Source: a virus
IMG/VR virus record: IMGVR_UViG_3300023184_000314
Span: 1 to 35,641 of that record
Length of the DNA stretch: 35,641 nt
Strand: one strand, 5' to 3'
Part shown: positions 3 to 19,717 of the stretch, in pieces
Position numbering within the stretch: the stretch's first letter is position 1
Layout: the number at the start of each line of letters is the position of its first letter
Position numbers and translations under genes: made by a program
The notes under the pieces: model-generated
Seen by the model: the letters and a program-made list of their open reading frames with translations, nothing else
The model's database searches: none
Told to the model about the DNA's origin: nothing

Positions 3-119
3 AAAAAAGAACAGATCTTAAATGAAATTCTTGGCACTCCCCATCATTCTGGCGGGGAGTTGCTTTTTTATTGCCCAAAATGTAAACATCATAAACCAAA
101 GCCAGATACTAATTACTAG
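3..119 (+). pseudogene. 5' fragment of a DNA primase gene (zinc-finger start only)
   Basis: Reading the frame that starts at base 3 gives a short open stretch that ends at TAG 117-119. It contains EQILNEILGT, then GGELLFYCPKC, then KHHKPK. This matches the N-terminus of the primase at 890 (KILIDIFGT, GEELLFSCPKC), so it is the first half of a primase zinc finger that lacks its second Cys pair and everything after it. The fragment continues beyond the left edge of the window. At the DNA level it has diverged from the downstream copy, so it is not a recent local duplication. It stops one base before the ATG of the homing endonuclease (TAGTATG), so the endonuclease may be translated by reinitiation. 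Whether a full gene existed upstream cannot be seen. Confidence 0.75.
34..69 (+). terminator. Terminator-like hairpin inside the primase fragment
   Basis: ACTCCCC (36-42) and GGGGAGT (54-60) form a perfect 7-bp stem with an 11-base loop. A GC pair can be added across a one-base bulge, and six T follow at 64-69. The shape is that of an intrinsic terminator, but it lies in sequence that once coded for protein (GTPHHSGGELLF), so it may be coincidental. If active it would reduce read-through from upstream into the endonuclease gene. Confidence 0.45.
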
Positions 120-120
120 T

Positions 121-924
121 ATGAAAATAATTAGTGGAATTTACTGCATCAAAAATATAGTAAACAATAAAATGTATATTGGTTCGTCTGTAAATATTGC
201 AAAAAGATTTAGATACCATATTTGGAAGTTAAAAAATAATAAACATCATTCTTTTTTGTTGCAAAATGCATGGAATAAATATGGGCAAAATAGTTTTGTA
301 TTTGAAATATTGCAAGAAACAGAAGTTGATTTTTTGATAATTGAGGAACAAAAATGGCTAGATGAAAAGAAAGTGTATCAACCAGAAAATGGCTATAATA
401 TAGCAAACATAGCAGGAAGTCCGCTTAATTTATTTACAGAAGAAACAAGAAAAAAAATATCTTTAGCAAATAAAGGAAAAATTACAACAGAAGAAACGAA
501 AAGAAAAATGAGTCAATCTCATTCTGGCAAATGTCTTTCCAACGAACACAAGAAGGCAGTCAGTAATGGAAAGAAAGGAAAAAAGTTTTCAGAGGAGCAT
601 AGAAAGAATTTAAGCCAAGCACAAACAGGTTTAACGAGAAATTTTACACAACAACACAAGCAAAAACTAAGTGAATCAAAAAAAGGCTTAAAACTTTCAC
701 ACGAACACAGAAAAAACATAGGAATTAAAAGTAGAGGTAGAAACTCTAAGATAACTGAAGAAATTGTAAAAGAAATTATTTCTCTATATGAAACAGGCAA
801 CCATTCAACGCGAAAATTGGCAGAAATTTTTAAAATATCAAAAAGTAATATACACAGCATAATATCCGGAAATACTTGGAAATATTTAAATGACACAAAT
901 TTACAAGGAAAAAATACTAATTGA
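121..924 (+). CDS. GIY-YIG homing endonuclease with NUMOD3-type repeats
   Basis: This is a 267-residue DNA endonuclease of the Seg-like or intron-encoded type. Residues 6-8 (GIY) and 19-21 (YIG) form the GIY-YIG catalytic core, followed by an Arg in FRYH and a Glu in LIIEEQKWLD. Next come about six short repeats of the NUMOD3 kind (for example TEETRKKISLANKGK, TEETKRKMSQSHSGK, SEEHRKNLSQAQTG), which bind DNA. The C-terminus is a helix-turn-helix segment (STRKLAEIFKISKSNIHSII). I chose the ATG at 121: the same frame is open from 22, but the extra residues are an out-of-frame reading of the primase fragment. There is no clear ribosome site before 121, and the TAG of the fragment is one base away. 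The last residues read into the start of the next gene, overlapping it by 35 bases. No intron RNA core is evident, so it looks free-standing. Confidence 0.9.
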   Translation: MKIISGIYCIKNIVNNKMYIGSSVNIAKRFRYHIWKLKNNKHHSFLLQNAWNKYGQNSFVFEILQETEVDFLIIEEQKWLDEKKVYQPENGYNIANIAGSPLNLFTEETRKKISLANKGKITTEETKRKMSQSHSGKCLSNEHKKAVSNGKKGKKFSEEHRKNLSQAQTGLTRNFTQQHKQKLSESKKGLKLSHEHRKNIGIKSRGRNSKITEEIVKEIISLYETGNHSTRKLAEIFKISKSNIHSIISGNTWKYLNDTNLQGKNTN

Positions 925-1834
925 CATATTTGGGACTTATCAAAAACAAGGAGAAGAACTTTTATTCTCTTGTCCTAAATGTGAGAATTCTTCAAAAAAT
1001 AAACTCTCCTGTAATCTGCGTAAAAACGTTTTTAAATGTTGGGTATGTAACTTTACGGGAACTTCTCTAACAAGGCTGGTGAAGCGTTATGGTTCGTTTA
1101 AACACAAACAAGAGTGGGCTATGTATGATGACAAAATTGATTTGTCTTCCACTTCTCTTGCAGATACTTTATTTGGACAACAAGAAGCACCTGAAACACT
1201 GCTTAATCTCCCTAAAGAATTTATTACCTTAACTGGTAAACATAATTCTTCAAATAATGTTGCGATCCGCTATTTGTATGAACGCGGAGTAAGTAAACAA
1301 GATATTCTGAAATGGAAGATTGGGTATTGCCCAGATGGAGAATATGCTGGACGTATCATTGTTCCAAGCTTCAACCTTGAAGGAAGAATAAATTATTTTA
1401 TTGGCCGTTCTTACCGTGATGATTGGATGAAGTATAAAAATCCTCAATTACATAAAAATTCAATAATCTTTAATGAACTTTATGTTGATTGGGATAGCGA
1501 TTTAACCTTGACAGAAGGGGTATTTGACGCTATTGTTATTGGAAATGCAATACCACTTCTTGGTTCAACCTTGCCAGAAACAAGTAGATTGTTCCAGGAA
1601 GTAGCAAAACATGATACGCCAATATACGTTGCTCTAGATCCGGATGCGGAGAAAAAAGCAAAAAATTTAATTAGAGATATGTTACAATATGGAATTGAAC
1701 TTTACAAAATTGATGTAAGGGGCTTCCAAGATGTTGGCAGCATGACCAAGGACGAATTCGCAGAAAGAAAAAGTTCTGCAATTCCCATGACCACAGATAG
1801 TTTATTTAAATACCAATTACAAGGAATAGCATGA
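890..1834 (+). CDS. DNA primase, small TOPRIM type (T4 gp61-like)
   Basis: The 314-residue protein should make RNA primers for lagging-strand synthesis with the phage helicase. It begins with a zinc ribbon: C28 and C31 (CPKC), then C50 and C53 (CWVC). The TOPRIM catalytic domain follows, with the Glu in LTEGVFDAI near residue 208 and the acidic pair in VALDPDAEKKA near residue 250. The size is close to T4 gp61 (about 340 residues). The ATG at 890 lies inside the 3' end of the endonuclease gene and the upstream GGAAA is a weak ribosome site, so translation may depend on coupling. Its N-terminus duplicates the fragment at 3-119. The stop codon overlaps the next start (ATGA). Confidence 0.9.
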   Translation: MTQIYKEKILIDIFGTYQKQGEELLFSCPKCENSSKNKLSCNLRKNVFKCWVCNFTGTSLTRLVKRYGSFKHKQEWAMYDDKIDLSSTSLADTLFGQQEAPETLLNLPKEFITLTGKHNSSNNVAIRYLYERGVSKQDILKWKIGYCPDGEYAGRIIVPSFNLEGRINYFIGRSYRDDWMKYKNPQLHKNSIIFNELYVDWDSDLTLTEGVFDAIVIGNAIPLLGSTLPETSRLFQEVAKHDTPIYVALDPDAEKKAKNLIRDMLQYGIELYKIDVRGFQDVGSMTKDEFAERKSSAIPMTTDSLFKYQLQGIA

Positions 1835-1974: not shown

Positions 1975-4900
1975 TTAAGATCGCACAAATTAGTGACACA
2001 CATATTCGAAACTTAAAGTATCACGAAGAATATCGTGAAGTATTCAATAAAATCTTCTCTTCTCTCAGAGAAGAAAAGCCCGATTACATTGTTCATACTG
2101 GCGATATTGCGCACACAAAAAATCAAATCTCACCAGAATTTGTGGAAATGTGTTCTTGGTTTCTCAAAGAACTTGCAGATATTTCACCAACGTATGTGAT
2201 TCTTGGTAATCATGATACAAATTTAAAGAATGATACTCGGCAAGATAGTATCACTCCAATCATTAATGCTCTAAATCATCCAAATTTACTTCTTTGGAAG
2301 TACTCAGGAGAAAGAATCATTAATGACAAACTTGCTTTTAATGTTCTTTCGCTGATTGACGAAGACAAATGGGTTAAACCAAGCGATACAAACCGTATTA
2401 ATATCGCTCTTTATCATGGAGCGATTGCCGGTGTGTCAACTGACATCGGTTATACACTTGAACATTCAGACCATGAACTTTCTATCTTTGCAGAATTTGA
2501 TTATGCTTTGCTTGGAGATATCCATAAGACTAATCAAATTGTTGATACAGAAGGTCGCGTTCGTTATCCAGGTTCAACTATTCAACAGAACCATGGAGAA
2601 ACTGATGACAAGGGTTTCCTAATCTGGGAAATTGAAGATAAAAATAAGTTTGATGTTCGCCACATTGTCATTCCGCATCCTCGCCCATTTGTGACAATTA
2701 AACTTAACGAAGCTGGTAAATTTGATGAAAGCTTGCAAATTAAGCCAGACGCACGCATTCGTGTTGTTTGCGAGCATAATCTTTCTGTAAGTGACATTCG
2801 TAAGTCAATTGATGTAATCAAGGTTAAATTTATTCCAGAAAGTGTAACCTTCTTAAATAAGGCCACAGAAAGAATTGATATTAGCGATACAATCAAAAAG
2901 ATTGATACAGAAGATTTGCGTAATATACAAACGCAAGAAAAACTATTACGTGAATATCTTAAAGATTTTAATCCAAAAGAAGAAGTTTTGCAAAAAGTGT
3001 TTGAGATTAATAAGAAGTATAATACTACCGCCGAAGAGAACGAAGAGGTTTCTCGTAATATTCGTTGGTCACTTAAGTCTATTAAGTGGGATAATCTTTT
3101 TAATTATGGAACTAATAATAAAGTTGATTTTGACAAGCTAGAAGGTGTCGTCGGTATTTTCGGTAAAAACTTCTCAGGCAAATCAAGCATCATTGATAGC
3201 TTACTTTGGGCAATTCAAAACTCAACGAGCAAAAACGTTCGTAAAAATGTAAACATCATTAATCAAAATCAGCAGAGTGCTAAATCAGAAGTTCAAATTT
3301 CTATTGATGATAAACTTTATATCATTGAAAGAACTGCCGAGAAGTATCTCAAGAAACTTGCAGGCGAAGAAACACTTGAAGCAAAAACAGATGTTTCATT
3401 TTCTGTTTGTGATGCGAATGAACAGGAAGATTGTATTACATATGAAAAAGGTAATTTAAACGGCCTTGATCGTAATGAAACAGACAAGAACGTTCGTAAA
3501 CTGTTTGGAACATTAGAAGATTTTCTTTTTACCTCCATGGCTTCACAAATGGGCTCTCTTGACTTTATTAACGAAGGTTCAACTCGTCGTAAAGAAATTC
3601 TTGGAAAATTTCTTGACCTTGAGCTTTTTGCCAAGAAGTATAAACTATCAAACAATGACGCCACTGAACTCAAGTCAGCACTAAAACGTCTTGAGAGCAA
3701 AGATTTTGACAAAGAAATTGCAGAAACACTTATTCGCGCTTCAGAAGCTAAAAAGCAAGCAGAATCGCAAACTCATGAGTGTGAAGAATTAAAAGAAGAT
3801 ATATTAAAGCTATCAGATAGTGTCAATCATATTAATCTTGAAATTGCTTCTTTTCCAAAAATAGAAGTAGTTGATATTGATCTTGTAAAATCTTCTTTAA
3901 ATAAAATAGAAGAAGATATTGTAGGGTGGCAAAAAACTATTAGCACAAACACAAAATTTGTTGAAGAAAAGCAAGTGGCATTAGAAAATGCCGCTAAACT
4001 TATCTCTGATATAAAAGTTGACGAACTTAATAAAAATAAGCAAATGCTGGCAGATAAGAGCAAAGAACTAGAAAAAGCATTACGTGAAATAACTGATATT
4101 GAAAAAGATATCTTACGCGATCAAATGGCTATCAAAATTCTTGATGAAGTACCTTGTGGTGATAGTTTTCCAACTTGTAAATTCTTGACTGATGCTTTTA
4201 CTAAAAAAGATGGCCTGGAAAAGAAAAATGAACTTGTAAAAATTTCAAGTAACAAAAAGCAACAACTTGAAAAAGAGATTGAGAAGCTAAATCCAGACGA
4301 GATAGAAAAATCAATTTCAACGCGTAATCTTATTCTGGAAAAAATCCGGAACATGGAAACAATCATTTCTAATAAAAAATTGGAATCTGAGAAACTAAAT
4401 GGTAAAATTATTATTTCTCAAAATTTAATTGAGAAATTAGAAAAGAAAATTGAAGATTATTACAAGAATGAAGAAACTGCTTTAATATTAAAAGATTTAA
4501 GTCATAAAAAGCAACAATTATTGACAGAAAAAACCGAACTTGCAAAGAACTTGTCTGAATGTGAAGCTAGCATTATAAAATTACATCGGGACTATGGCTC
4601 ATTAGAACAAAAATACGCAGACTTACAGGATTCAAAAAGTGAGCTTCTAAGATTAAGAGATGAGTACACTGCAATCGCTATGTTTGAAAAAGCAATGCAC
4701 AGTAACGGTATCAGCTATGATGTTATTAGAAAGAAGCTACCAGTAATAAATGAAGAGATTGCAAAAATTCTATCAAATATAGTTAATTTTGAAATCTTTT
4801 TTGAGGACGACGGAAAGAAATTAGATATCCTAATCAAACATCCAAAATATGATGCACGTCCACTTGAACTTTGTTCAGGTGCTGAAAAGAGTCTTGCTGC

Positions 4901-5144
4901 TATGGCTATTCGTCTTGCTTTAACTAAAATAACATCATTACCTGTCGGAGATGTATTTATATTAGATGAACCAGCAACGGCTCTTGACGAGGAAAATATG
5001 GAAGGCTTTATGCGTATAATTGATATGTTGAAATCACACTTCAAGACAATCATACTTATTTCTCACTTACCAGAATTAAAAGACGTTGCTGATCTACAAA
5101 TAACCATTGACAATGTTGATGGTTATGCGCACGTGGAGGCTTAA
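1971..5144 (+). CDS. Fused Mre11/Rad50-type recombination nuclease (T4 gp47 + gp46)
   Basis: One 1057-residue chain holds both halves of the SbcCD/Mre11-Rad50 complex, which processes DNA ends for recombination-dependent replication. Residues 1-190 are the metallophosphoesterase nuclease: D9-T-H, G44-D, G79-N-H-D, H149 and G182-D-I-H. The ATPase half starts near residue 370, with Walker A GKNFSGKSS at 398-406. A long coiled coil follows, with a hook-like apex C729-GDSFPT-C736. The ABC signature LCSGAEKS lies near 967 and Walker B VFILDEPATALDE near 1000, and ISHLPELK follows. In T4 these are two genes of about 340 and 560 residues. The hook Cys are six residues apart instead of the usual CxxC, so zinc binding there needs a different geometry. 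No frameshift or stop separates the halves. Confidence 0.93.
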   Translation: MIKIAQISDTHIRNLKYHEEYREVFNKIFSSLREEKPDYIVHTGDIAHTKNQISPEFVEMCSWFLKELADISPTYVILGNHDTNLKNDTRQDSITPIINALNHPNLLLWKYSGERIINDKLAFNVLSLIDEDKWVKPSDTNRINIALYHGAIAGVSTDIGYTLEHSDHELSIFAEFDYALLGDIHKTNQIVDTEGRVRYPGSTIQQNHGETDDKGFLIWEIEDKNKFDVRHIVIPHPRPFVTIKLNEAGKFDESLQIKPDARIRVVCEHNLSVSDIRKSIDVIKVKFIPESVTFLNKATERIDISDTIKKIDTEDLRNIQTQEKLLREYLKDFNPKEEVLQKVFEINKKYNTTAEENEEVSRNIRWSLKSIKWDNLFNYGTNNKVDFDKLEGVVGIFGKNFSGKSSIIDSLLWAIQNSTSKNVRKNVNIINQNQQSAKSEVQISIDDKLYIIERTAEKYLKKLAGEETLEAKTDVSFSVCDANEQEDCITYEKGNLNGLDRNETDKNVRKLFGTLEDFLFTSMASQMGSLDFINEGSTRRKEILGKFLDLELFAKKYKLSNNDATELKSALKRLESKDFDKEIAETLIRASEAKKQAESQTHECEELKEDILKLSDSVNHINLEIASFPKIEVVDIDLVKSSLNKIEEDIVGWQKTISTNTKFVEEKQVALENAAKLISDIKVDELNKNKQMLADKSKELEKALREITDIEKDILRDQMAIKILDEVPCGDSFPTCKFLTDAFTKKDGLEKKNELVKISSNKKQQLEKEIEKLNPDEIEKSISTRNLILEKIRNMETIISNKKLESEKLNGKIIISQNLIEKLEKKIEDYYKNEETALILKDLSHKKQQLLTEKTELAKNLSECEASIIKLHRDYGSLEQKYADLQDSKSELLRLRDEYTAIAMFEKAMHSNGISYDVIRKKLPVINEEIAKILSNIVNFEIFFEDDGKKLDILIKHPKYDARPLELCSGAEKSLAAMAIRLALTKITSLPVGDVFILDEPATALDEENMEGFMRIIDMLKSHFKTIILISHLPELKDVADLQITIDNVDGYAHVEA

Positions 5145-6859: not shown

Positions 6860-7390
6860 ATGGCTGAATTAATGGATGTAATAAATGGAATTTCACAAGT
6901 AATGGCGCAAACCTATGATGGTGCCCGCGATGAAAAAGGGGAACTAATAAAAGTAGGTCTACGTCGTGAAGAAGTTGCTGCATTCACAAGCTGTGATTGC
7001 CGTCTCCTTGATGGATTTAGGGCGAGGGTAACGCACCATGCTGATAAAGATGGTTCGTTCCCTATTTTGATTATCAGTTATCAATCAGAGCTAAAATTAG
7101 AAGAAGCTCATAGCCCAAAATTGGGTGCTGATGTTGAGGGTTATATCGCTGAGTCTTTGAAATATCTTAAAAAAGAATTCAAAAAAGTATCAGGCAAAGA
7201 ATTATCTGTTGAAAAATACGGTGATATTAATATGCTTGTTGAAGAAACCTCAAAAATAAGAGTATTTGTGACTGCACAATGTCGCTATAAGATTGGCGGA
7301 GTTGATATGCCAAAACTAGAAAACCCATCAGATGTTGATCGTTCTAAGCAATTTCAAAAATGGCTTTCATTAGGTGGATTTAAAAAATGA
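6860..7390 (+). CDS. Conserved-looking phage protein of unknown function, 176 residues
   Basis: A strong ribosome site (GAGGAGA) precedes the ATG. The product has no signal peptide or membrane span and a mixed alpha/beta pattern, with strands around GFRARVTHHAD and FPILIISYQSEL, a helix around YIAESLKYLKKEFKKVSG, another strand around KIRVFVTAQCRYKIGG, and the tail FQKWLSLGGFKK. Its stop overlaps the ATG of the EF-hand gene (ATGA). It lies where a small terminase subunit can be found in T4-like phages, two genes before the large subunit, but I see no helix-turn-helix or coiled coil to support that. Function unknown. Confidence 0.8.
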   Translation: MAELMDVINGISQVMAQTYDGARDEKGELIKVGLRREEVAAFTSCDCRLLDGFRARVTHHADKDGSFPILIISYQSELKLEEAHSPKLGADVEGYIAESLKYLKKEFKKVSGKELSVEKYGDINMLVEETSKIRVFVTAQCRYKIGGVDMPKLENPSDVDRSKQFQKWLSLGGFKK

Positions 7391-7692
7391 AAATAAACAA
7401 ATCACGTTTATTACAAATAATTCGCGAAGAAGTTGAACTTCATGAAAAAAATACTATAGAATTAGATGAAGTAGAATTGGGAACATTTGCTGATGCCGAT
7501 AGTAATAAAGATGGCAAACTTTCAAAAAAAGAAAGAAACAATGCAATTAACATTGCAATTGCTGCTGATAAAGAAGCTGGCAATTTAGAGGAAGAAGAAG
7601 GTCCACAGGAAGACCAGCTATTTGCCACCAACAAGCCTCACAAATTAATAGAACCAGATAAAAAAAGCAAGCTAGAAATTCGAATAAGATGA
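7387..7692 (+). CDS. EF-hand protein with prohead-targeting-like N-terminus
   Basis: The 101-residue product opens with MKINKSRLLQIIREE, a pattern shared with the proteins at 13287 and 13850, followed by LDEVELGTF, which resembles DEVDEALGTF at 13287. Residues 38-49 (DSNKDGKLSKKE) are a canonical 12-residue EF-hand calcium loop: D1, N3, D5, G6, L8, S9, E12. The rest is acidic and low in hydrophobic residues. A cut after IRE at residues 12-14 would fit the [IL]xE rule of T4-type prohead proteases. I infer an internal head or core protein that may bind calcium. Only one EF-hand loop is present, so binding may need pairing. Confidence 0.8.
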   Translation: MKINKSRLLQIIREEVELHEKNTIELDEVELGTFADADSNKDGKLSKKERNNAINIAIAADKEAGNLEEEEGPQEDQLFATNKPHKLIEPDKKSKLEIRIR

Positions 7693-13161: not shown

Positions 13162-13290
13162 ATGAATTTAGTAAATCAAAATATTAAAAAATGGTTTCTT
13201 CCGCAAACCAACACAAGAAATTGTTGCAAAGGTAGCCATATCGTGCGGATTGTGCCCGCACTTCTATCTTTAAAGGAATCTACAAAATGA
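13162..13290 (+). CDS. Possible small protein, 42 residues
   Basis: ATG at 13162 is preceded by AGAGG (13152-13156) at a spacing of 5, and the stop overlaps the next ATG (13287-13290). The product begins MNLVNQNIKKWFLPQTNTR, has a CC pair and ends LLSLKESTK. It resembles no family I know. A GC-rich hairpin (13243-13261) lies within it. Signals for initiation and coupling are good, but composition gives little support, so the stretch may instead be a regulated leader. Confidence 0.45.
   Translation: MNLVNQNIKKWFLPQTNTRNCCKGSHIVRIVPALLSLKESTK
13243..13261 (+). other. GC-rich hairpin before the motif-bearing head protein gene
   Basis: GTGCGG (13243-13248) and CCGCAC (13256-13261) form a 6-bp stem with a 7-base loop, 25 bases before the ATG at 13287. 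No T-tract follows, so it is unlikely to be a terminator. It could affect translation of the downstream gene or be an RNA processing site. Confidence 0.4.
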
Positions 13291-13844
13291 AAATCACAAA
13301 AGAAAAATTACAAAAATTAATCCAAGAAGAACTGCAGTCAATGCAGGAAACCGATGAAGTTGATGAAGCTCTTGGAACTTTTTTCAAATCATTAGGCACA
13401 GGTGTTAGTGACGTAGCTAAAGCAGCAGCTTCCGGAGTTAGTGGAGCTATAAGCGCAGCTAAAGAAGCAAGTGCAAAGGCTGATGCAGAGTCTGCAAAAG
13501 TAAAAGAAGAAACAAAAAAAGCGGCAGATAGAGTGAAAACAGACGCAGATGTTGAAGTCGTAATACAAAGTATTTATAAACAAGTTTTAGGTGCCCTTAA
13601 TTCTTTAGATGCTTTAAGAAGTAAAATGATGACTTTACAAATGCCTTTAAAAACAGATACTCTTGATATTGTTTTGGTTATCAGACAATTATCATCGGCC
13701 CGCACCACTTTATTACATGCAGGCAAGGTACCAGAACAACTTCCGAAAGGTCAAGGCCCAAATGCATTTGATCAGACATCACGCAGACCTCCAAGATTAA
13801 CTTCAAAACCAAAAGCCAGTTTTGAAGAACAAGAGGAAGAGTGA
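13287..13844 (+). CDS. Putative internal head protein, Ala-rich, with targeting-like N-terminus
   Basis: The 185-residue product opens with MKITKEKLQKLIQEEL, the motif also seen at 7387 and 13850. Residues DEALGTFFKSLGTG match DEKLLSALKGIGKG of the next gene, so the two are related over about 40 residues. A long Ala-, Lys- and Ser-rich helix follows (AKAAASGVSGAISAAKEASA), then a helical domain and a Pro-rich acidic tail. A prohead-protease-type cut could fall after IQE at residues 12-14. No catalytic motif. I infer an encapsidated or core protein. Confidence 0.8.
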   Translation: MKITKEKLQKLIQEELQSMQETDEVDEALGTFFKSLGTGVSDVAKAAASGVSGAISAAKEASAKADAESAKVKEETKKAADRVKTDADVEVVIQSIYKQVLGALNSLDALRSKMMTLQMPLKTDTLDIVLVIRQLSSARTTLLHAGKVPEQLPKGQGPNAFDQTSRRPPRLTSKPKASFEEQEEE

Positions 13845-13849
13845 TTTAA

Positions 13850-14878
13850 ATGCGCCTTACCGAACAAGAAATAAAGCAAATTATAAAAGAAGAATTCGCC
13901 AATCTCGTCAACGAAGAAGAGATTGATGAAAAGCTTTTAAGTGCTTTAAAAGGTATTGGTAAGGGACTTTTTGACAAAGCCGCAGATTTTATGTCTGGCA
14001 AACCAAAACCAAACGCTTCTCAGGGCGTTGGTCGTTCATTTGCGAGATATAAAGTTCCACAAAAACAACCAATGGGGCAACCAGAAAAAAAACCTGATGC
14101 TCTGGTGCGGCGCAACGCATCTCAGGGTATGCAAACATCTGATTCTGATGCTGAGCAACCTGCTAATCATAAAGCCGCGCCATTTGGTTCAAGTTATTCA
14201 GTTGATGAACCAGAACAATTAGGCACAGGACAGCCAACTGACTCAGCACCGCAAGACATTAAATCTTCAGGTGACTTGCCACCGGGTAATTTACCAAAGC
14301 AATTGCCTGCGCCCGAAAGAATAGGCGTAGTTCAAGATTATGGAGATCTTTTACGTTCAACAATAGACGAGTCTTTTTCTCTGTTGAGACAAGAGGTAGA
14401 AAGAGATTTTATCAACGATCAACGTTTCAAGTCGTTAAATACATCACAAAAAAAAGAAACTTTAAACAATATTAATACGGTTTTAAAACACCTTGTAGGT
14501 ACAAAGCGAGTTTTACAAAATTCAACAATTGGTCCAATTACAAAAGATATAAAAGAAGAAAGAGAAAAAATGCCTTCTTATCAGCAGGTCGGACTTGAAC
14601 CTTGGTATATAAATAGTTTAATTATTACTACTAAAAAATATTTTAGTGGCAGAATACCTCAAAATATAGTAGAATATGTAATAACCACTTTGTTTAAACA
14701 AGGAAGATTAGCAATAAGTACAAGATTATATAACAAACTATTACACACAAATGATCCTGCAATCCGAAATCCACAAGATTTAGATAATCTTGAATCACAG
14801 CTACAGCAAGAATCTAAATCTTACGATAATTTTTATAATAACTGGAAAAGATATACAAAACCCGGAGTCAAAATATGA
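13850..14878 (+). CDS. Putative internal head protein, paralogue of the preceding gene's N-terminus
   Basis: The 342-residue product starts MRLTEQEIKQIIKEEF and continues EEEIDEKLLSALKGIGKG, related to the gene before. Residues about 45-160 are Pro-, Gln- and Ser-rich and probably disordered, with NASQG occurring twice. From about 165 the chain is a helical domain (DYGDLLRSTIDESFSLLRQE, then LNNINTVLKHLVGTKR) ending in NNWKRYTKPGVKI. A cut after IKE at 12-14 would remove the targeting segment. It overlaps the protease gene by ATGA at its stop. Inferred role: a head-interior or core component that the adjacent protease matures. Confidence 0.8.
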   Translation: MRLTEQEIKQIIKEEFANLVNEEEIDEKLLSALKGIGKGLFDKAADFMSGKPKPNASQGVGRSFARYKVPQKQPMGQPEKKPDALVRRNASQGMQTSDSDAEQPANHKAAPFGSSYSVDEPEQLGTGQPTDSAPQDIKSSGDLPPGNLPKQLPAPERIGVVQDYGDLLRSTIDESFSLLRQEVERDFINDQRFKSLNTSQKKETLNNINTVLKHLVGTKRVLQNSTIGPITKDIKEEREKMPSYQQVGLEPWYINSLIITTKKYFSGRIPQNIVEYVITTLFKQGRLAISTRLYNKLLHTNDPAIRNPQDLDNLESQLQQESKSYDNFYNNWKRYTKPGVKI

Positions 14879-16435: not shown

Positions 16436-19400
16436 ATGTCAAAACAAAAAGGTTTTGCAGTTATTTCAGGTTCTAGCACAGTAGTCGCTAAAATCATGGA
16501 AAACGGCACGGTAGTATTCGGTGATCAAAAGCCAGTTAATATGCGCGTTAGCGGTACACTCGTTCTTGACCTAGAAGGTCAAGTAGGTGGTGCCGGTAAA
16601 GTTCTACATGTTGGCACAGATGGCAGTGCTTCATTAGCACAAGTTTCTGCAGCAAATGTTACCACCACCGGTGGTAGTAATGTTCAAGCTGTATTAAACA
16701 GCTTATCAAGTAGTCAAAGTACTGATTTCGGTTCTGTCAATACAAGAATGTCTACTGAAGAAGCTGCACGCGCTGCAGCTATAACTTCTGAAGCTTCTTC
16801 ACGTACAGCAGCTGACAACAGCCTCGCAGCACTAATGAGTTCAGAAATTGCTAGTGTTGATGCAATAATCACTAGTGAAGTTCTAAGTCTAGAAAGTAAA
16901 ATCAATGACGACATCAGTAGTCTAATCAATGGCGCTCCAAGCGTTCTTGATACATTAAAAGAACTAGCTGATGCAATCAGTGGTGATGCAAGTTTCGTTC
17001 AAACTGTTCTTAATCGTGATAATAGTTTAGAATCTGCAATTAGTTCTGAAGCTTCTGCTCGCGTTGTTGCTGATGCAAGTCTAGCAACTGCACTATCAAC
17101 ACAAGTTTCAACTGAAGCTTCTACGCGTGTTGTTTCCGATGCAAGTGTAACAACTGCATTGTCAACACAAGTTTCAAGTGAAGCTTCAAGAGCTACCGCT
17201 GCCGAAGGTTCATTAGCTACTGCATTAACAAATGCGGTTTCAAGTGAAGTTTCCTCACGCGTTAGTGGTGATGAAAGTGTTTCAAGTGCATTCTCAGCTG
17301 CAGTTTCAGCTGAAGCAAGTATGCGCACTGCAGCCGATGTTTTACTAGCTAGCGATCTAAGTTCAGAAGTAGTTGCACGTGAAAATGCAGTTAGTTCTGA
17401 AGCTGCAGCACGTACTGCTGGTGATGCAAGTGTAACAACTGCTCTAAACACTGCAGTATCATCAGAAGCTTCAAGTCGTGTTGTTGGTGATGATTCACTA
17501 TCAGCAAGAATTGATGCAATTGACAGTTTGCAAACTGTTGATCTTGCTTCAATTGAAACTCGTCTTTCAAACGAAGAAGATCGCGCAGATTCAGTTGAAT
17601 CAGCAATCAGTGCCGATCTAAGTTCTGAAACTGTTCGTGCACAATCAGCTGAAGCTGTATTAACTGCAGATCTTAGTACCGAAGTTGTTGATCGTCAATC
17701 AGCTGATACAAGTCTTCAAACTCGTTTATCAGCTGAAGAAGTTCGCGCTGCTTCAGTTGAAGGTGTTCTAAGTACAGACCTAAGCAGTGAAGCTGCCCGT
17801 GCTGCTTCAGTAGAAGCTGTATTAGCAGGCAGAATTGATGGTGTTCTATCAAACTCTGACCCAGCTGCTCTTGATTCATTGGCAGAAATTGTTGGTGCAT
17901 TCCAAAGTGCAGACGGCACAATAAATGGCGCTATCACAAGTCTTGCAACCGGTTTAAGTACAAGTATTTCTTCCGAAGCTTCACGCGCTGTAGCTGCCGA
18001 AGGTAGTCTTGCTTCTTCAATCAGTAGTGAAGCCTCACGCGCTGAAAGTGTTGAAGCAGTATTAACTGCTGCCGACAGCACCGAAGTTGCTGCTCGTCAA
18101 TCAGCCGATACAAGCCTGGATAGTAAACTTTCAACTGAAACTGCTCGCGCACAATCAGCTGAAACCTCACTAACAAGTGCTTTCTCAACTGCCGATGCAT
18201 CATTAGCTACAAAGATTGACGCAGATATTTCTACGGAAGCAGCTGCTCGTTCAAGTGCTGATAGTTCATTAGCTTCAAACTTAAGTTCTGAAGTTTCTAA
18301 CCGTACTTCTGCAGATGCAAGTGTCGTTGCGGTTCTAAGTAGTGAAATTGTTGCACGTGCAAGTGCAATTGATAACGAAGCAAGTATTCGTGCTGCTGCT
18401 GACGTAAATCTAGCATCTTCACTTTCAACAGAAATTGTTGATCGTGCAGCCGCTATCTCAACAGAAGCTTCTAGCCGTGTTACTGGTGATGCAAGTGTTG
18501 TTGCTCAACTTAGTACTGAAATTGCTGATCGTGAAGCCGCAATCAGCAGTGAAGCATCAAGTCGTGTTGCAGGTGACGAAAGCGTTGCAGCTGCTCTAAG
18601 CACTGAAATTGCTGATCGTCAAGCTGCAATCAGTAGTGAAGCATCAAGTCGTGTTGCAGGTGATGGTAGCCTACAAGCTGCACTAAGTAGTGAAGAATCA
18701 ATCCGTGTTGTCGGTGATGTTTCATTAGCCAGTGCAATCTCAACAGAAAAAGTCAGAATTGATGCAATCCTCAATGGTTCTATTGCTGATCTAGATCAAT
18801 TTGCTGAAGTTGTTGCTTATGTCGGTAGTTTAGATACAGCACAATCAAATGCAATCCTAACCAGTATTGCAAGTGTGAATGTAAGAGTTTCATCTGAAGA
18901 AAGTGCTCGCACAGCAGGTGATGGCAGTCTAACAACTCGCTTATCATCTGAAGAAAGTGCTCGTACAGCAGGTGATGGTAGCTTAACAAGTCGCTTATCA
19001 ACTGAAGAAGTTGCACGTGCTTCAGCAGATACTTCATTAGCAACTGCTCTTTCAGGCGAAGCTTCAAGAGCAACCGCAGCAGAAGGTTCATTAGCAACTG
19101 CTGTTTCAGCGGAAGCAAGTGTCCGCACTTCAGCAGATAGTAGCTTAACAAGCCGTCTATCAAGTGAAGAAAGTACACGTACTTCAGCTGATGCATCATT
19201 AGCAAGTAAACTAAGTGCCGATGTTTCTACGGAAGCTGCTGCACGTTTAGCTGCTGATGGAAGTCTAGCAACTGCACTATCAAGTGAAGCAAGTGTTCGT
19301 CTCGCTGGCGATAATTCACTTGATGCACGTGTTGATACATTAGAAGGCGTCCTAATCGTAGGCGCTGCTAATGAAATTGACATCAATGGTGGCCCAGGCG

Positions 19401-19717
19401 CTGTTGGTCTAAGTGGCACAATTACAATCGGTCTCCCAGATAACGTCACTGTCGCTGGCAACCTAACTGTAAATGGTAATGCTACACTCGGTGACAGTTC
19501 AGCCGATCAAGTAACAGTAAACGGTAAGTTCCAAGCTCCTAAGTTTACTGCTGCAACAATCCCAGCTGCATACCTAACCGGTGTTCAAACAGCACACAAT
19601 GGACATATGTTCTATCTTGATGCTGCAAATGATGCCGTTGCTGCATTCCCACAAGGCCAGAAATGGTACTTCTGTGAAGGTGGTGAATGGTTCGCAAGCC
19701 CATTTTATGGTGCTTGA
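16436..19717 (+). CDS. Long repetitive fibre protein
   Basis: The 1093-residue product has a short N-terminal domain (KGFAVISGSSTVVAKIMENG) resembling that of the 183-residue protein at 19842. Residues about 100-965 are low-complexity Ala/Ser/Glu repeats such as SSEESARTAGDGSLTTRL, in 18- and 22-residue units, as expected for a parallel helical bundle. Three breaks contain a tail-fibre-type motif such as INGAPSVLDTLKELADAIS. The C-terminus is beta-rich (NVTVAGNLTVNGNATLGD) and ends with QKWYFCEGGEWFASPFYGA. It is probably a trimeric fibre; whether on the tail or head is unknown. It sits between protease and scaffold genes, an unusual place for a fibre, and has its own terminator. Confidence 0.85.
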   Translation: MSKQKGFAVISGSSTVVAKIMENGTVVFGDQKPVNMRVSGTLVLDLEGQVGGAGKVLHVGTDGSASLAQVSAANVTTTGGSNVQAVLNSLSSSQSTDFGSVNTRMSTEEAARAAAITSEASSRTAADNSLAALMSSEIASVDAIITSEVLSLESKINDDISSLINGAPSVLDTLKELADAISGDASFVQTVLNRDNSLESAISSEASARVVADASLATALSTQVSTEASTRVVSDASVTTALSTQVSSEASRATAAEGSLATALTNAVSSEVSSRVSGDESVSSAFSAAVSAEASMRTAADVLLASDLSSEVVARENAVSSEAAARTAGDASVTTALNTAVSSEASSRVVGDDSLSARIDAIDSLQTVDLASIETRLSNEEDRADSVESAISADLSSETVRAQSAEAVLTADLSTEVVDRQSADTSLQTRLSAEEVRAASVEGVLSTDLSSEAARAASVEAVLAGRIDGVLSNSDPAALDSLAEIVGAFQSADGTINGAITSLATGLSTSISSEASRAVAAEGSLASSISSEASRAESVEAVLTAADSTEVAARQSADTSLDSKLSTETARAQSAETSLTSAFSTADASLATKIDADISTEAAARSSADSSLASNLSSEVSNRTSADASVVAVLSSEIVARASAIDNEASIRAAADVNLASSLSTEIVDRAAAISTEASSRVTGDASVVAQLSTEIADREAAISSEASSRVAGDESVAAALSTEIADRQAAISSEASSRVAGDGSLQAALSSEESIRVVGDVSLASAISTEKVRIDAILNGSIADLDQFAEVVAYVGSLDTAQSNAILTSIASVNVRVSSEESARTAGDGSLTTRLSSEESARTAGDGSLTSRLSTEEVARASADTSLATALSGEASRATAAEGSLATAVSAEASVRTSADSSLTSRLSSEESTRTSADASLASKLSADVSTEAAARLAADGSLATALSSEASVRLAGDNSLDARVDTLEGVLIVGAANEIDINGGPGAVGLSGTITIGLPDNVTVAGNLTVNGNATLGDSSADQVTVNGKFQAPKFTAATIPAAYLTGVQTAHNGHMFYLDAANDAVAAFPQGQKWYFCEGGEWFASPFYGA
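16740..19330 (+). repeat. Degenerate in-frame tandem repeats encoding the fibre shaft
   Basis: Coding repeats with units of 54 or 66 bases (18 or 22 residues) recur, most regular at 17174-17371 (22-residue units) and 18890-19320 (mostly 18). They are diverged at DNA level and stay in frame. Such repeats can recombine and change shaft length. They also produce long spurious open frames on the opposite strand. Confidence 0.85.

Follow-up and report, generated by a model that had tools for sequence, protein, structure and literature searches.

The opening bases of this viral contig raise the question of why the start of a DNA primase gene occurs twice, once on either side of a homing endonuclease gene. 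The window, meaning the whole stretch of DNA that was analysed, is the whole of a linear virus record (35,641 bases), which is apparently a fragment, and it encodes tailed-phage head, tail and replication proteins. It also holds, at 16436–19717, a gene for a 1093-aa protein that consists mostly of imperfect repeats like SSEASRTAADASLATALSTE and is apparently fibre-like. A sequence-only reading had proposed that the endonuclease homed into the primase gene and that a second, diverged primase 5′ end rescued the gene afterwards.

A chimeric primase gene beside a GIY-YIG endonuclease

The left end of the window is organized as follows:

1–102, + strand: orphan 5′ end of the resident primase (KKEQIL...KHHKPK codons); 100% DNA identity to L045, 99% to L002
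103–119, + strand: linker closing the orphan frame (PDTNY; TAG at 117–119); read from the sequence, missing in L002 and L045
121–924, + strand: GIY-YIG homing endonuclease with a NUMOD3 motif and a C-terminal helix-turn-helix, 267 aa; Pfam and PHROG matches
890–1019, + strand: carried (rescue) primase 5′ end, about 43 codons; 57% DNA identity to the resident end
1020–1834, + strand: resident primase body, in frame with the carried 5′ end; 100% identity to L045 up to the end of that contig, 96% to L002

The orphan is truncated on its left by the contig end, and the left joint lies at 102/103. Bases 1–102 encode KKEQILNEILGTPHHSGGELLFYCPKCKHHKPK and are followed by five more codons and the TAG, the translation of frame 3–119 being KKEQILNEILGTPHHSGGELLFYCPKCKHHKPKPDTNY and then the stop. 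As the earlier reading had noticed, the endonuclease ATG (121) stands one base beyond this stop, and an intact primase restarts after the endonuclease; its coding sequence (890–1834) specifies 314 aa and matches the PHROG DNA primase family at 9.5e-43. The orphan, the endonuclease and the primase occupy three separate frames with stops. The same reading placed the break after KHHKPK and ahead of a conserved Cys pair, in agreement with resident homologues, which read ...KHHKPK and continue directly into LSCNLRKNVFKCWVC, so that the break in the window falls between two Cys pairs.

The similarity of the orphan fragment to the restored N-terminus exceeds chance and marks them as homologues (tblastx, 57% over 28 aa, E 1.4e-9), yet only 5 of 32 aligned codons are identical between the carried and resident ends, and the longest exact shared run is 7 nt. 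Read from its sequence, the primase at 890–1834 is a chimera of a foreign 5′ end and the resident body, the old 5′ end having been left upstream of the endonuclease. The carried end keeps the Cys pairs and is in frame with the body, so a full-length and presumably functional primase could be made. The single base between orphan stop and endonuclease start and the 35-nt overlap between the primase start (890) and the endonuclease end (924), which are in different frames, would suit coupled translation. The overlap had also been noted previously, and was taken for a recombination joint that replaced the endonuclease's own end. This proposal is not supported, because the helix-turn-helix is complete, only about the last 12 residues fall in the overlap, and the right joint lies inside the primase, at about 1005–1020.

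The endonuclease-free allele for which the earlier reading had suggested a search was found in two relatives. The primase start is uninterrupted in L002 (93% aa identity over the whole protein) and in L045, whose contig stops within the gene. Both match the orphan at 99–100% and the body at 96–100%, but match 890–1019 at only 55–57%. In a tree of the N-terminus, limited to 46 columns and with a long branch, a grouping of the carried end with L002, L045 and the orphan was rejected (AU p 0.011). No donor of the carried 5′ end was found, the nearest sequences in this tree being L004, L006 and L012, again at the end of a long branch. Because empty alleles exist, and because the resident 5′ end, the resident body and the foreign 5′ end can be told apart, homing at the KHHKPK codons with restoration of the gene is strongly supported. 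Among the primase loci examined, we saw neither an unrelated complete primase upstream nor relatives in which the fragment is a normal separate gene.

The window endonuclease matches Pfam GIY-YIG at 3e-9 and NUMOD3 at 2.8e-8, has the C-terminal helix-turn-helix, and matches the PHROG homing endonuclease family at 3.5e-41. The conserved motifs of the GIY-YIG catalytic domain are present: GIY, YIG and the aligned Arg, Glu and Asn positions are common to this enzyme and those of L138 and L140, described below. Neither a close relative of the endonuclease, in viral contigs or phage records, nor a second copy of the exact window cassette was found. Its identity to the L225 enzyme and the enzymes of related primase cassettes is about 36%, which indicates the same kind of cassette and not a copy of the same one. 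By analogy with these, the window endonuclease is itself probably mobile.

Recurrence of end-replacing cassettes in other phages

A second phage group is interrupted at the same zinc-finger site. The loci L225 and L226, which are those of L354 and L355 and come from two samples, were joined by L356, L357 and L358 when we searched with related endonucleases. In L354, L356, L357 and L358, an orphan primase 5′ fragment, a small Arc-like ORF and a GIY-YIG endonuclease are present together with a full primase that has a diverged N-terminus, and the orphans again end between two Cys pairs (CPYC/CPFC..HHKKK.S.NF..). Uninterrupted relatives of this group are L303, L304, L306, L308, L317, L322 and L328. 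Compared with the empty L304, L354 shows 94% identity in the orphan and 97% in the body, but only 57% aa identity in the carried N-terminus. A promoter-like sequence, judged by eye, precedes the restored primase in L354.

The Arc-like ORF (PHROG 8e-6) lies at 3865–4035, precedes the endonuclease and overlaps its start, and is 80–100% identical in amino acids among L354, L356, L357 and L358; it is perhaps a repressor belonging to the element. A motif, MK(I/L)(T/N)KxxLxxIIxEEL, flanks the primase cassettes of this group (L225 at 3521, L357 in the region of 2645), and the same motif starts several unrelated small genes of the window (7387–7692, 13287–13844 and 13850–14878).

Comparison within the group bears on what is transferred. 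The endonucleases of L354 and L356 are 87–91% identical in DNA whereas the primase bodies are 58–67% identical, a disparity indicating that the nuclease moved between lineages. Since the nucleases are far more alike than the primase bodies across L354 and L356–L358, the rescue end most likely travels with the nuclease. L356 and L357 share 93–98% identity in the nuclease and 98% in the spacer, but 77% in the carried end; carried ends that differ more than the nucleases imply that recombination can separate the two, and that they do not always move as one block.

A separation of this kind may be seen in L313, whose primase locus has no endonuclease and no upstream orphan. Its primase body is 99% identical in amino acids to that of L317, and positions 3985–4147 equal the carried end of L357 exactly over 163 nt, at the same offsets from the L357 primase ATG (4619). 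The exact stretch begins 16 nt upstream of the ATG and reaches the Trp codon within the second Cys pair, and its flanks match other phages. The most economical interpretation is that L313 either acquired a copy of the rescue end by itself or lost a nuclease it once had. By either route it would be resistant without carrying the nuclease, and its primase 5′ end is possibly a resistance allele spreading on its own.

The mirror arrangement, at a 3′ end, was found in another gene. In L138 (the same phage as L007 and L008, from two samples) and L140 (the same as L011), a related endonuclease, 39% identical in the alignment, lies between an intact SbcC-like gene and an orphan whose first codons are those of the Walker-B motif (IFILDEPATALDEEN...). 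At this insertion site, the SbcC gene of the window itself has no interruption. Over the compared stretch, the L140 orphan agrees with the window protein at 60 of 60 positions and the fused 3′ end at 54 of 60; furthermore, the fused ends of L138 and L140 share MILDEP and NIDGY variants that are missing from the orphans. We read the 3′ end of the SbcC-like gene as replaced in both loci. Two degenerate copies of the start of the target site (TATTTATTTTAGATGAGCC-like) are found between the restored SbcC stop and the endonuclease, at 5108–5170 in L138 and at the same place in L140; they may be what earlier insertions left behind.

The arrangement of an endonuclease gene with a foreign-ended full gene on one side and the orphaned native end on the other is thus found in the window, in L354–L358, and in L138 and L140, with uninterrupted alleles in close relatives: L002 and L045 for the window, L304, L317 and L328 for the second group, and the window itself for SbcC. 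Beyond this set with uninterrupted alleles, further loci are candidates:

L181 (head-tail connector): candidate 5′ type; orphan fused in frame to the endonuclease
L151 (sulfotransferase-like): candidate 5′ type; orphan fused in frame to the endonuclease
L265 (late sigma factor): candidate 3′ type; the copies differ by 7 synonymous codons and 0 amino acids
L300 (NrdB): candidate 3′ type
L112 (RuvC-like): candidate 3′ type

An unsupervised scan for flank duplication returned 6 of 133 testable unique endonuclease genes and 12 of 276 control ORFs at E ≤ 1e-3, and by itself did not separate the two sets. It yields false positives, since neighbouring genes of other kinds whose ends are shared produce similar flanks too; each case was therefore assessed on its own, and those relied on have uninterrupted relatives. 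All positive loci are viral contigs from metagenomes, and none of the 18 GIY-YIG loci of isolated phages (L406–L423) has the end-replacing arrangement, so that no cultured example of it was found.

A proposed homing route and its rivals

We consider it highly probable that the window holds a homing cassette without an intron but with a rescue end of its own, namely a GIY-YIG endonuclease together with diverged primase coding sequence from upstream of the target. In this proposal, the nuclease would act on insertion-free primase genes, cutting at the conserved zinc-finger codons near CPKCKHHKPK/LSCN (the slash marks the break). A cassette-bearing genome would serve as the repair template: its orphan 5′ fragment would pair with the left side of the break, and the primase body with the right. 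The nuclease and the rescue 5′ end would thereby enter the recipient together, and the recipient's old 5′ end would stay upstream as an orphan ending at a stop. The different DNA spelling of the rescue end would prevent self-cutting and hinder loop-out between the copies; the carried end should accordingly be resistant to its own enzyme.

The best of the rival explanations, although improbable, separates these steps: the endonuclease broke the primase first, and an independent recombination later supplied the diverged 5′ end. Two such events would end in an identical arrangement in the window, a stepwise origin of this sort is needed for the first cassette of each kind, and the carried end and nuclease of the second group have partly separate histories. 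Against this, the nuclease and carried end occur together at the same site in four further lineages, the mirror form exists in another gene, and a phage with a broken primase would presumably die or pay a cost until the gene was rescued. The separate, later rescue in the sequence-only reading is therefore a second part of it that we do not retain, the carried end being better explained by this recurrence, and by the 3′ cassettes, as part of the cassette itself.

Very unlikely is an assembly artefact, in which the resident 5′ end of an endonuclease-free strain was misjoined to an endonuclease-bearing contig. The orphan does occupy bases 1–102, at the very edge of the contig, and the left joint comes 102 nt into the window; the L045 contig ends (4246) near the same place, 119 nt beyond the last difference. 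These contig ends would fit the coexistence of both alleles in one sample, with the assembler breaking there. However, the same layout lies inside contigs in L354–L358, the same form recurs in contigs of two samples for L354/L355 and for L007/L008, and the chimeric gene at 890–1834 is independent of the orphan.

Slightly less credible still is a history in which the primase 5′ end was duplicated locally, the copies diverged and the endonuclease landed between them. Two homologous copies are indeed adjacent, but this history predicts that both are about equally close to L002 and L045, whereas the observed identities are 99–100% and 55–57%; we rejected it on this asymmetry and on the AU test given above. 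Finally, although GIY-YIG endonucleases are often intron-borne and some of the isolate loci examined are annotated so, a group I intron or an intein carrying the endonuclease has a negligible chance of being correct, since the primase is complete without the orphan, no Rfam match, as a conserved ribozyme core would give, was obtained at gathering score, nor within 1–1400 at E up to 1, and the orphan and endonuclease lie in different frames with a stop between them, an arrangement that excludes an intein.

Relation to known mobile elements

The closest parallels come from fungi. Yeast WHO elements at FBA1 consist of an endonuclease that homes into a metabolic gene without splicing, the FBA1 3′ end being swapped for a diverged, cleavage-resistant copy and the old end remaining as an orphan beyond the endonuclease (Coughlan et al. 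2020, PMC7282813). The gene halves have discordant histories, and cleavage and allele-specific resistance were demonstrated experimentally (PMC7282813). The phage cassettes share with them the lack of splicing, the diverged replacement end, the orphan old end and the discordant gene halves. WHO elements, however, reside in the yeast nucleus, use an HO/intein-type endonuclease with a zinc finger and always replace the 3′ end, whereas the phage cassettes use a GIY-YIG enzyme, replace the 5′ end in primase and the 3′ end in other genes, and are known from sequence alone. With its GIY-YIG enzyme and replaced 5′ end, the window cassette would work alike but is not a WHO element proper.

In fungal mitochondria, mobile ORFs (Allomyces atp6; Glomus atp6, atp9, cox2 and nad3) carry foreign C-termini, with an endonuclease ORF between the inserted foreign end (64–81% DNA identity to relatives) and the native end (91–98%), and the hybrid gene is transcribed (Beaudet et al. 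2013, PMC3630166). The window cassette resembles them in placing its endonuclease between a foreign gene end and a native one; they are mitochondrial and concern C-terminal ends only, while the window type replaces a 5′ end.

Among phages, the free-standing seg and mob endonucleases of the T4 type are intron-less and cut neighbouring essential genes with co-conversion of flanks, and the seg genes, like that of the window, encode GIY-YIG enzymes (PMC2988022, in excerpt). According to the same excerpt, they lie between genes or split a gene into two working pieces (the mobE and mobA insertions), and a carried gene end is not described. The excerpted phage accounts deal with endonucleases located between genes, with introns and with split genes, and do not describe carried ends (PMC2988022, PMC10448857). 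In the openly licensed literature, we found no description of end-carrying homing elements in phages, or of a 5′-end version anywhere. The proposed mechanism would thus match that of WHO elements and fungal mobile ORFs, known for 3′ ends; new here would be the phage setting, the GIY-YIG enzyme, both polarities and the 5′-end version.

We think it reasonably likely that phages hold a widespread natural class of home-and-rescue elements, in which GIY-YIG endonucleases invade important genes at codons for conserved motifs and bring along, in altered DNA spelling, the end they cut off, 5′ or 3′, and whose rescue end can spread alone as a resistance allele, as in L313. Replacing the part that is cut off would give a homing endonuclease another way to occupy an important gene, one that involves neither intron nor intein nor gene splitting, and such cassettes may explain chimeric phage gene ends with discordant histories. 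HomeR, an engineered Cas9 home-and-rescue gene drive in Drosophila, likewise targets an essential gene and supplies a re-coded rescue (PMC7968924). The likeness is an analogy of logic only, HomeR being laboratory-made and not a relative, but the phage cassettes would offer a natural, testable counterpart to such drives, including the counter-move to be expected, in which a resistance allele spreads in the nuclease's absence.
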